From contig JAKACV010000005.1 in assembly GCA_021821085.1 (NCBI GenBank), positions 1 through 64,000 on the forward strand: a stretch of DNA of 64,000 nucleotides, read 5' to 3'. This DNA is from Bacillota bacterium (GTDB lineage Bacteria; Bacillota; Bacilli; Alicyclobacillales; SLC66). Below are positions 6,268 through 10,251 of the stretch, one piece after another (the stretch's first letter is position 1; the number at the start of each line of letters is the position of its first letter). The translations under genes were made by a program, and so were the position numbers. The notes beneath the pieces are model-generated. The model was not told the origin of the DNA. It ran no database searches and saw only the letters and a program-made list of their open reading frames with translations.

Positions 6268-6883
6268 CGTGCAACAACTCCTCTTAGATTTTTTGCTTAC
6301 CAGTCTATTATTTTTGCAAATCTAAGTTTTGAAAAGTAATATTTTCCCATGTCACTTTTGATTGTAAATATCTGTTTTGCATTTTCTTTGGTTTCGTGAT
6401 AGACAATACATTTACTTTTAGCGCGATATCAAAACAGAGCTAAGGATGGATATCTGAAACTATGCTCTCAGATTGATTTTGTGAAAGAAAGATATTAATT
6501 TTTCATATCTACCTACTCTTATGTATTCCGTAGCATTGCTCCGGGCTGAGCTGAGTAGACAGTAGCAATGCTACGGAAAACCACTTGGATTTTCCAATAC
6601 AAGTTAAGGTTTGGTCATAATTTAGATCTGAAATATAAGGTTTGAGCACGCCAAATCCTTTGTGGCGACTGGCCCTACTAAGCACAATTCCACGTAATAC
6701 ACTTGCGCAGTCATTCACATAAAATATGGAAGCCAAAGCGTAGCAATGCTGAGCAATGCATAATCGTTAGCCACAAATAATGGGTAATGCAAGGGTGATA
6801 AGAAGGTCAATATCTCAACTGTTCTTAGAGATCATTTATAAAAACCACTACAAATGTAGTGGAAAATAATGTTTGACATTAAT
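6268..6883. other. AT-rich non-coding region with inverted repeats
   Basis: No gene is supported. A perfect 15-bp inverted repeat (TTCCGTAGCATTGCT at 6526-6540 and its complement at 6564-6578) has a 23-nt spacer, and its GTAGCAATGCT core recurs near 6738. A 7-bp stem with a 4-nt loop lies at 6844-6861, just before the structured stretch. Confidence 0.5.
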
Positions 6884-7416
6884 CTGCTGAAACGGTAGCA
6901 TGGACACGTAAACAATTAGTATGAATCACCAAGCTGTCCAGCCCGAAAGGGTAGGTACGTGACGGTGATCCAATCCCCGTATAGGTCATGCTTTTTCGGG
7001 AGCTGACAGGGGGATTGCGATCAGCGTTTTTTTTGCATTTAAAAGGCTGATCGCAAGGGTTCGATTGAAACAGTATTGGTGTTCCTCGGAAAAAGAGGAT
7101 GAGCCAAAATCGGTCGAGACAGTACCAAAATGTTCGTGAACACGCCGGACATGGGTGGTACGCAAGTACTTTGAGAGGAGGGATTTTGCCCCGATGGACG
7201 TGGGCGGTCGAAAGTCAGACTTCCGTCTGACAGGTTAAAGTAAGAACGCGCGAAGCTGCATGGCAGCACCCACTCGTGGGTAATCGCGTTGCCGGTGCTC
7301 ATCTAAAGATGAGCACCCGACAGGGAATACGGCGCATAGGTGCTAATCATTGTACAACTACATATGACCACTTCAAGTGGTCCACAGTCTCTGCATGTAA
7401 GCAGAGACTGTGGACC
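6884..7416 (+). ncRNA. Candidate large structured RNA upstream of the recombinase
   Basis: Unlike its AT-rich flanks, this stretch folds into a succession of strong helices. They are GGG/CCC with a GAAA loop (6942-6951); CAATCCCC/GGGGGATTG (6971-7017); an 11-bp stem (7015-7056); TTGG..CCAA with an inner TCCTC/GAGGA stem (7076-7107); a 7-bp stem closed by TTCC (7214-7231); a three-way junction enclosed by ACGCG/CGCGT with GCTGC/GCAGC and CCCA/TGGG arms (about 7245-7290); an 11-bp stem (7294-7317); and a perfect 16-bp stem with a 6-nt loop (7379-7416). The GAAA loop and the downstream gene suggest the plus strand. It has no convincing group I, group II, RNase P or tmRNA core that I can see. Exact ends are unknown. 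Confidence 0.5.
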
Positions 7417-7557
7417 GGGACGCAGGCTGAAAGTTGGAACTACTGCGGTTTTTAGAGTAACAATGGGCAGAAAACTGGCGGAAATCGTGCACTCTGTCAA
7501 TGGGCGGACCATGCCTGTTTCTTCGGGAAGATGTGTTCAAGAAAGTAGGTGATTACA

Positions 7558-8406
7558 GTGGGGAATACATCAAAAACACTATTGGACCAAGTACAAGCAA
7601 CTTTTCGCCATACGCGTGCAGGTTCTATCAAGACTCGTGAAAGATACCTGGAGACCGGACGAAGGTTGGCTAAATACCTTGGAGAGCAATACCATGTCTC
7701 AAACCTTCGGAACATATCAGATAAGCATCTGGAGGGGTATGTACGCTATTTGCAGTCCCAAAATGCTAGTGTAAGTCATATCAAAACGGAACTCAGTGCT
7801 ATTCGTTTCATTGCAGATCACGTTGGGCTGAAGCGCCCACTTGAAGCGGCAAAAACATTTAACCAAAGGATGGAGATAGGTCAGCGCCACTTTCGTGGTA
7901 ATGAGCGTCTTTGGAAGCCAAATGATCTACGTATCATTGAACAGGCACCAGCCCGGATTAGAGATGTGCTAATTATTGCTCGTGATATGGGTTTGAGGGT
8001 GCATGAGGTACATAGAATCGATGTTGCAAGCGCTCGTCAAGCTATAAAGTCAGAAAAATTGACGGTCAAGGGTAAAAATGGTCGGGTACGACAGGTACCA
8101 GTGCGCGGGGAAGTCAAAGAAGTTTTGAACCGTGCTATTGAATCGACTGAACCAGGTCACAAGCTCTTCGTGCCACCTGAAACGGGTACACACCAAGCAA
8201 TTGCCGAGGTTCAATACTACATCTGGTCTCACCGACCGGAAGGCTCGACAGCCCGTATTCATGGTTTAAGGCATGGGTATGCGCAGGAAAGGTTTCAGGA
8301 GTTCCGCGAGCGAGGTATGTCACAACGTGATGCAAAGCTCGCCGTGTCCGAGTTACTCGGTCATTCTCGAATCGACGTGGTTGACATCTATTTGTCATCA
8401 TATTAA
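7558..8406 (+). CDS. Tyrosine recombinase / integrase
   Basis: GTG at 7558 is chosen because AGGTGAT lies 4-10 bases upstream; GTG at 7549 is in frame but overlaps it. The N-terminal SAM-like core-binding domain covers about residues 10-95. The catalytic domain has Arg147 (MGLRVHEVHR), a beta-hairpin Lys near 171-173, HGLRH (His235, Arg238), GHSR (His269) and the nucleophile Tyr278 near the C terminus. The HGLRHGYAQ pattern resembles the putative integrase family Pfam Integrase_1. It should catalyse site-specific integration and excision of this element; the tRNA fragment at 9971-10023 is the likely target remnant. Its transcript may include the structured region upstream. Confidence 0.88.
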   Translation: MGNTSKTLLDQVQATFRHTRAGSIKTRERYLETGRRLAKYLGEQYHVSNLRNISDKHLEGYVRYLQSQNASVSHIKTELSAIRFIADHVGLKRPLEAAKTFNQRMEIGQRHFRGNERLWKPNDLRIIEQAPARIRDVLIIARDMGLRVHEVHRIDVASARQAIKSEKLTVKGKNGRVRQVPVRGEVKEVLNRAIESTEPGHKLFVPPETGTHQAIAEVQYYIWSHRPEGSTARIHGLRHGYAQERFQEFRERGMSQRDAKLAVSELLGHSRIDVVDIYLSSY

Positions 8407-8552
8407 CGGGCTGAACTGAGAGTACTGACTAGGCTATACAGCGGGATGGATAGCTAAACAAAACTGAATGGGGAGAGTTTACGCTTGTCGCCCTTACGAA
8501 TCGGAACTGGTAAAGTAAGATTACCAGGATTTTGAGGAAGGGGGCACTCGGG

Positions 8553-9770
8553 ATGATTTTAACAAATTCAAATCAGCGCCATGATTTTACATTATTTCAA
8601 ATTGAAAAAGGAATTCGAGACGGTCAGGAGATATCGATAGCTTCGGCATTTTTTAGTGAGACGGATCTCTTGAAAACGATGACCAAAAAGGCTTGTTCTA
8701 TTCGACTGATTGTTAGATTGGGATTCCCTACATCCCCTGTTTCTCTTCGCTTTGCTCTCCAAAACCCATCTATTGAGATTAAGTGCTACACTACTCCAAA
8801 ATTTCATCCCAAGTTCTATCTGATTGGCAAGGAGTTTGCCATCCTAGGGTCTTCAAATCTAACGAAATCCGGACTTTTGTTAAATCGGGAAGCTAATATC
8901 CTCCTGCCTTCTGACGACCCTAGTTTTGAAGAGCTTGAGGAAGTTTTTGAAATGATGTGGGAAGATGCATATCCATTGACAATGGATATGGTGGATAAAT
9001 ACGAGAAAGCAGTGAGTGGTCTAGAACAGGCCAATGCTCAATCAGAGCAGAAAATTATTCGAGAGATAGGTCAGTTCGAGTGTAACGATTTCGATGTAAC
9101 AAAGACATCAGCGTTGCAGAAGCAGATTGATAGGGAAATTAGGCAGTATCGTGCGTTTCTTGCACAGTTTGATATCTTACGAGATGTCTACACAAGGGAC
9201 AAGAGAAGAAAGGAACCTAGAGTGCCTATTCATATCGAAATTGACCAGTTTCTCAACTGGATTTTTGATGATCAAGGTGCAAGCCAAGAGTACTCAAAGC
9301 AACCGGTGCGAACAGGTAACAACCTCATCGACAATATCCAAATGTGGATCAATGCCTACCACGACAGTAGCAGTAATACCACAACCGAGATTTACGAAAT
9401 AAGATACAAGTATCTGATGGAGTCACTCTCTTCGAGAGAATCAATTAAAAAGATGGGAATTGTAGACTTTGAAAAGGTCTTAATGAAAGTGTACTCCTTT
9501 GAAGAGCACGTACGTAGGTATGATCAAGGTGTCTCTTTTCGGAGCAATAATGCTAGTAAAGTGAAGGAGACTTTCACGTACCTCTTATTCGCTGGCGGTA
9601 ATGTTGAAGAAAGGATTATTCGTTGTTTCAAAGATCCCAAATATAAACTTGATGGGGTCGGAGCCAGTACAGTAAAGGAACTCTTTGGATGGGTGAATAA
9701 GGAAGACATGCCCATATACAATGAACGTGTACGCAAGGCTATGTTATTTTTGGGGTTTAATCTTCAATAG
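8553..9770 (+). CDS. PLD-like nuclease domain protein with HhH-like C terminus
   Basis: ATG 8553 follows GGAAGGGGG; a TTG at 8532 overlaps that site. The 405-residue protein has an N-terminal phospholipase-D-type fold: SIASAFFSE, then HPKFYLI (His85, Lys87) and GSSNLTKSG, ending with a Glu in NREANIL. The usual Asp of the HKD motif is replaced (G at that position), as in several HxK-only family members. Only one motif is present, so activity would need a dimer. The C-terminal 60 residues (KLDGVGAST, then PIYNERVRKAM) resemble the helix-hairpin-helix glycosylase-type tail of some restriction-related proteins. Its place beside an integrase suggests a cargo or defence gene; this is inference. 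Confidence 0.7.
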   Translation: MILTNSNQRHDFTLFQIEKGIRDGQEISIASAFFSETDLLKTMTKKACSIRLIVRLGFPTSPVSLRFALQNPSIEIKCYTTPKFHPKFYLIGKEFAILGSSNLTKSGLLLNREANILLPSDDPSFEELEEVFEMMWEDAYPLTMDMVDKYEKAVSGLEQANAQSEQKIIREIGQFECNDFDVTKTSALQKQIDREIRQYRAFLAQFDILRDVYTRDKRRKEPRVPIHIEIDQFLNWIFDDQGASQEYSKQPVRTGNNLIDNIQMWINAYHDSSSNTTTEIYEIRYKYLMESLSSRESIKKMGIVDFEKVLMKVYSFEEHVRRYDQGVSFRSNNASKVKETFTYLLFAGGNVEERIIRCFKDPKYKLDGVGASTVKELFGWVNKEDMPIYNERVRKAMLFLGFNLQ

Positions 9771-9970: not shown

Positions 9971-10023
9971 CTGGATTTCCTAAACCGCGTCTTGCGGGGG
10001 TTCGAGTCCCTCCGGGTGCGCCA
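9971..10023 (+). pseudogene. 3-prime fragment of a tRNA (Leu-like), probable att site
   Basis: The sequence ends in a normal T arm (GGGGG-TTCGAGT-CCCTC), a 3-prime acceptor strand CGGGTGC, discriminator G and encoded CCA (10021-10023). No matching 5-prime acceptor strand GCACCCG occurs upstream, and the anticodon stem does not pair, so this is not a complete tRNA. The upstream GTGGCGAAAAAGGGGTACAC faintly resembles a Leu D arm. A tRNA 3-prime end at the edge of a segment with an integrase is the usual scar of integration; the intact tRNA copy would lie left of this window. The tRNA-Leu identity is tentative. Confidence 0.6.
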
Positions 10024-10251
10024 AAAGGCTTGATATATAAGGGTTTGTGGCTAGTGGTGGTTTTTTACATCCGGGCTGCAAACTTTTTTTTCAACACAAT
10101 TCGAACAGTATCTCATTTGTATGGTACTGTTCTAGAGAACAGTACCATGAAGTAGATCTGAGTATTATGGATAGACAAGTTTGGCACGTCGTTTATGTGC
10201 TATGGTTATGGTAAATTCACTATATGTAAAATTAATTAGGGAGGATATGAT
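10024..10251. other. Intergenic region with palindrome
   Basis: A 13-bp perfect inverted repeat (ATGGTACTGTTCT and complement, 10121-10148, 2-nt centre) is the only clear element. It lacks a T tract, so it could be an operator rather than a terminator. This is the first chromosome-like spacer after the mobile element. Confidence 0.4.

Follow-up and report, generated by a model that had tools for sequence, protein, structure and literature searches.

A probable structured noncoding RNA beside a tyrosine recombinase in Bacillota plasmids and plasmid-like elements, a possible partner in mobilization

The bridge RNA of IS110 is a structured RNA encoded beside a recombinase, the fold of which is unrelated to that of the tyrosine recombinase considered here, and no RNA tied to tyrosine recombinases was found in the literature except through the work on relaxases. 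In Salmonella Genomic Island 1 (SGI1), the tyrosine-recombinase-like protein MpsA and the protein MpsB, which consists of a core-binding domain only, need sgm-sRNA (PMC9299015, PMC6414798), an RNA that derives from a ~700-nt transcript, is encoded between the origin of transfer (oriT) and mpsA, is essential for transfer and is apparently unlike classical regulators or small RNAs (PMC9299015). TcpM (pCW3, MOBM) and MobK (pIGRK) are further tyrosine-recombinase-like relaxases with an oriT near their gene, while the RNAs EFASI and STAXI were detected by reverse transcription PCR (RT-PCR) in E. coli vesicles (PMC12370729). Here, we analyzed a hairpin-rich region directly upstream of a tyrosine recombinase (integrase) gene in a 64,000-nt stretch of a Bacillota genome (Alicyclobacillales, SLC66; assembly GCA_021821085.1, contig JAKACV010000005.1, positions 1 to 64,000, hereafter the window), which an earlier note had proposed as a possible new class of structured RNA linked to recombinases.

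The structure proved genuine: compensatory changes preserve its shape, though not its sequence, in distant relatives, and it is linked to the recombinase family. We tentatively read it, at somewhat less than an even chance, as a promoter-driven noncoding RNA of ~600 nt that would be paired as a mobilization module with the tyrosine-recombinase-like protein beside it, in plasmids and plasmid-like integrated elements. SGI1, TcpM and MobK were compared by published description only; the likeness to sgm-sRNA lies in an RNA encoded next to a tyrosine-recombinase-like gene, whereas MpsA lacks a core-binding domain, which MpsB supplies, and the window recombinase has its own. TcpM and MobK differ in the same respect, and no RNA has been reported for either of them.

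Covariation and conserved architecture

The predicted fold of positions 6870–7560 (–260.9 kcal/mol) was far more stable than that of 20 dinucleotide-preserving shuffles (mean –212.9, sd 5.1, z –9.5), and in 200-nt segments the surplus stability was confined to ~6800–7500, with none within the integrase gene. The local G+C content of the structured region was 45–50%, compared to 36–42% in its flanks. Folding and a stem search recovered the many helices, the GAAA tetraloop (CCC-GAAA-GGG within 6939–6955) and the perfect 16-bp stem described in the earlier note; the three-way junction that it had reported does exist, but there are in fact two, in tandem. No Rfam family matched the structured region at gathering scores, and no sensible match appeared at E-values up to 10; neither Rfam nor ARAGORN recognized a group I or group II intron, RNase P or tmRNA at the locus, in agreement with the earlier note (a group II match in the relative L041, at 2374–2444, sits on the opposite strand). 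DNA-level homologues of the window RNA were absent from plasmids, from the other 17 genomes of the family and from the rest of its own genome.

As MAFFT fails to align distant copies, covariance models were used; searching for junctions by rules proved too permissive to support statistics. Model R1, for which the window supplied the only sequence (entered as two identical rows, with the structure given by the analyst), was run on 34 relatives (166 kb). Most of the loci that it matched had previously been read by eye, but none of them had entered the model. It matched L009 (E 1.1e−5), L018 (5e−5), L051 (7e−5), L014 and L015 (2e−3), L016 (8e−3) and L042 (9e−3), in all cases upstream of the integrase and on its strand. 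In alignment A8 (7 sequences), 27 of the 31 pairs of the two junctions had changed on both sides; in A9 (17 hits, 16 distinct) compensatory change was seen in 30 of 31, and 95% of the cells pair. The covariation of A9 was 0.859 vs. 0.195 (sd 0.020) when shuffled, a value reached by none of 500 shuffles, and slid registers gave at most 0.123. Both alignments were fitted to the structure and some of their rows are close relatives, so these counts favor the structure, a bias kept in check by the slid registers and by the search on held-out loci. Covarying pairs in relatives, named beforehand as a check, are present. A structure arising by chance or from repeats and lacking function, for which nothing speaks apart from short overlapping open reading frames (ORFs), is refuted for both junctions by the fold z-score, the shuffles and the slid registers, and has practically no probability left.

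Model R2 additionally matched L044–L046 and L048 (1e−6 to 3e−5), L050, L041, and L052. Among 399 genomes of the class it found seven copies, one per genome and all in integrase-bearing genomes, and in a phylum sample one further copy beside an integrase, in a scan that was insensitive, as copies matched in the locus search were missed. For nearly all RNA hits the integrase is found in the same contig region or in one adjacent to it; G305 has the RNA on one contig and an integrase fragment on another. Homologous integrases (27–64% identity) are present in Bacillota plasmids, in 16 of 399 class genomes (counting that of the window) and in 18 of 398 phylum genomes, counts that are coarse by lineage, as well as in just 3 of 50,697 phage records. 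Upstream of most Bacillota copies lies a long stretch without annotation, the fold z-score of which is strongly negative (exceptions are L022, L047, L049, and L053), and in a comparison of element ends the similarity among copies stops ~90–105 bp past the integrase.

The plan common to the relatives comprises two abutting three-way junctions, each with an outer helix and two hairpins, followed by 4–8 nt, the single strand UACUCAAC or GUGCUAAAC, a long perfect hairpin, weaker motifs and the integrase (Table 1 for the window). The single-strand motif was present in 14 of 21 loci (shuffles: mean 2.2, maximum 6), with a pattern composed after the sequences had been read. The longest perfect stem upstream of the integrase had a median of 14 bp vs. 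8 in shuffles (shuffle maximum 11); a perfect stem of at least 12 bp occurred in 25 of 36 loci, 20 of them with the hairpin core, the pattern for which was composed after the stems had been seen. In the window this GUCUC-type core is CAGUCUCU/AGAGACUG (7385–7392 and 7403–7410), while relatives keep CUGUCUCU, CUUUCUCU and similar strings, CTGTCTCT or a variant being the core of their long hairpin. A lox/dif-like recombination core, with 16-bp arms and a 6-bp spacer, was rejected as a general explanation of this hairpin, since its loop varies from 3 to ~90 nt among relatives.

The 16-bp stem does end ~140 nt before the recombinase start at GTG 7558, as the earlier note had it for the whole stretch, but motifs continue to ~7510. 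This GTG is the probable start, because it coincides with that of relatives with 62–64% identity (MGSTEKT), and GTG 7549 is unlikely. Across the region, 3.8 promoter-like sites of the kind listed in Table 1 are expected by chance, so the weight of the predicted promoter rests on its position and score. Further repeats were seen around the family: a 25-nt inverted repeat with 84% complementarity (GTATTCCGTAGCATTGCTCCGGGCT, window 6523–6581) lies upstream of the promoter, on the minus strand of the L042 locus the 5′ domain that follows the predicted promoter carries repeated GAGGAC...GUACCG hairpins, perhaps a repeated RNA motif, and the Vallitalea plasmid L034 has ~108-bp tandem repeats (TCATAGCTTACGTTTGAGCTAATCAAGCGAAA) 5′ of the junctions, up to ~860 nt upstream of the integrase.

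Table 1. Features of the structured region and the adjoining gene (positions in the window)
Feature	Position	Strand	Basis and remarks
Sigma-70-like promoter TTGACA-17-TAGCAT	6873–6901	+	Predicted; 10 of 12 positions fit the consensus; borders the structured region on its 5′ side
Structured RNA, extent inferred to lie between the promoter and the ribosome-binding site of the integrase	6908–7545	+	Fold z-score, promoter, relatives
Long hairpin of the 5′ domain (6908–7247)	7015–7056	+	15 of 16 pairs; counterpart in relatives uncertain
Three-way junction A, outer helix enclosing two hairpins	7248–7289	+	Covariation
Three-way junction B, abutting A directly	7290–7334	+	Covariation
Conserved single strand GUGCUAAUC	7340–7348	+	Motif count; similar string in EFASI consensus
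Perfect 16-bp hairpin	7379–7416 (stem 7379–7394/7401–7416)	+	Stem search, relatives
GGCAGAAAAC/GGCGGAAAUCG motif	7466–7487	+	By eye and pattern; some relatives; weak
GUCAAUGGGCGGACC, resembling GCCAAYGGG of several relatives	7496–7510	+	By eye; weak
Tyrosine recombinase, 282 aa from GTG 7558	7558–8406	+	Pfam, alignment, translation

Relation to EFASI

In the Enterobacterales plasmids L032 and L114–L118, which carry homologous integrases, the upstream region contains STAXI followed by EFASI (RF02957), the latter adjoining the integrase. The position upstream of a homologous integrase is thus shared with the window RNA, and the EFASI consensus, a three-way junction in which an outer helix encloses two hairpins, with UACCUCAAC/AUACCUCAACAU/GCAAUACCUCAACAU coming next, resembles junction B and the UACUCAAC strand; among the Bacillota copies, L046 has GAAUACUCAAC and L018 GAAUUACUCAACAU. 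At the same time, neither the window nor 20 relatives reached the gathering score of RF02957 (in 8 of them there was no match at E-values up to 0.5), an Rfam search of the same loci found no STAXI (RF01728), and the covariance models of EFASI and of the Bacillota family do not recognize the other group. The two also differ in that the Bacillota RNA has two tandem junctions and, downstream of them, the hairpin with the GUCUC core, while the Enterobacterales have a GUCAC hairpin that stands upstream of EFASI. Place, topology and motif suggest a kinship, and since no model crosses between the groups, the window RNA is likely a Bacillota counterpart of EFASI rather than a member of it. The proposal of a new RNA class linked to recombinases is borne out as far as covariation, held-out model hits, gene linkage and absence from Rfam are concerned, with the amendment that EFASI, together with STAXI, is a likely known counterpart. 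In the Acinetobacter plasmids L031 and L108–L113, a conserved, usually unannotated stretch of ~350 bp (mostly 72–82% identity) precedes the integrase; it had no Rfam match, and in L031 it includes a 19-bp perfect hairpin around GCGTCAC.

Mobilization and competing explanations

In the proposed mechanism, the region would be transcribed from the promoter at its 5′ edge and act as RNA, which may bind the recombinase or aid its assembly on a DNA site, and the two together would form a mobilization module like that of MpsA/MpsB and sgm-sRNA in SGI1. Gene neighborhood and literature make mobilization of a plasmid or island, over plain integration, our best reading. The RNA may be the partner of a mobilization protein because a VirD4-like coupling protein lies just downstream of the integrase in Acinetobacter and Vallitalea plasmids, because MPF_G or MPF_F occurs without a typed relaxase in four carriers from Enterobacterales (a count within carriers), and because of the rarity in phages, the SGI1 parallel, and an ORF between RNA and integrase in L051 (580–1461, two domains) and L046 (1062–1547) that consists of a SAM-like core-binding domain only and is possibly an MpsB-like partner. 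Several observations weigh against mobilization. Two other Enterobacterales carriers have ordinary relaxases (MOBH or MOBF), and neither a coupling protein nor a relaxase was found near the window copy or most Bacillota copies. Known tyrosine-recombinase-like relaxases lack a core-binding domain, whereas the window protein has a SAM-like one (Pfam; in L051 and L046 there is an additional, separate one) next to a catalytic domain in which the R-K-HxxR-H-Y residues are all conserved (alignment), and the protein is thus possibly a true recombinase. Finally, transcription, which for the Bacillota copies is itself an inferred step, would have to be followed by protein binding and a role in transfer, both equally inferred.

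The two-domain protein with its intact residues leads to the somewhat unlikely but serious competitor in which the same RNA is a cofactor or trans-acting regulator of an ordinary site-specific recombinase (dimer resolution, integration, excision); many of the carriers are plasmids of small size that lack transfer genes, and a tRNA 3′-end remnant at 9976–10024 suggests an integrated element. Against it stand the coupling proteins adjoining the gene in two lineages, the carriers with a type IV secretion system and no typed relaxase, and the precedent of SGI1. That the region controls integrase expression as a cis-acting 5′ leader, as the earlier note had considered for translation, is improbable: it is always upstream on the same strand and the window has no better promoter between it and the integrase, but the hairpin-to-gene distance varies from ~160 to 690 nt, a separate ORF intervenes in L051 and L046, and its size and complexity exceed those of usual leaders.

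It is likely that the region acts as RNA rather than as single-stranded DNA, and we consider it unlikely that it is a folded oriT bound by a recombinase-like relaxase, or a leading-region element (single-stranded DNA promoter, lagging-strand start). The choice is not decided by the types of loop, the G.U content or the energy of the strands: GNRA loops are enriched (10 vs. 0.9 expected), but so are C(GNA)G triloops (16 vs. 0.5), on this strand only and with none in RNase P, there are only 16 G.U among 453 standard cells (vs. 8 A.C and 9 G.A), and the folding energy has no strand excess beyond composition while that of RNase P does, a control of one family with non-independent copies. The scarce G.U pairs and many triloops, being also compatible with single-stranded DNA, count against a mobilization RNA, and in the tyrosine-recombinase-like class the oriT, with its inverted repeats, precedes the gene for the relaxase (PMC6414798, PMC8152469). 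On the other side, ~600 nt with two tandem junctions far exceed known oriTs (125–151 bp), the region is transcribed if the promoter at its edge is used, and EFASI and STAXI were found as RNA (PMC12370729). In a broader and rather unlikely scenario, a tyrosine recombinase family extending from Bacillota to Enterobacterales and Acinetobacter would depend strictly on a large structured RNA as its partner in DNA recognition or processing. EFASI, sgm-sRNA and the window RNA would then have branched within a single system, and this would be the first tyrosine recombinase or relaxase to require an RNA.

Neighboring genes and significance

A RepC-like plasmid replication gene (66–773) at the contig start suggests, together with the integrase region, an integrated plasmid over ~1–10 kb. 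Directly after the integrase, 8532–9770 encodes a PLD-like protein (PLDc_2) with weak similarity to DpdK, possibly a defense nuclease. The tRNA 3′-half-like sequence further downstream (GGGGTTCGAGTCCCTCC...GCGCCA) was not called by ARAGORN and may be a scar left at the attachment site of an integrated element; an intact tRNA identical to it was not found elsewhere in the genome, and a tRNA-Arg(tct) in L061 matches weakly.

The window RNA belongs to a large, strongly covarying RNA family of Gram-positive plasmids that is absent from Rfam, and through it the orphan EFASI motif would gain a counterpart that is distant but has its protein partner in common with it. Both RNAs may thereby be tied to the question of what makes an RNA necessary for the conjugative transfer of SGI1. 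If the transfer module is true, the mobility of plasmids typed as non-mobilizable, which make up 101 of the 118 plasmids carrying the integrase gene, would be underestimated.
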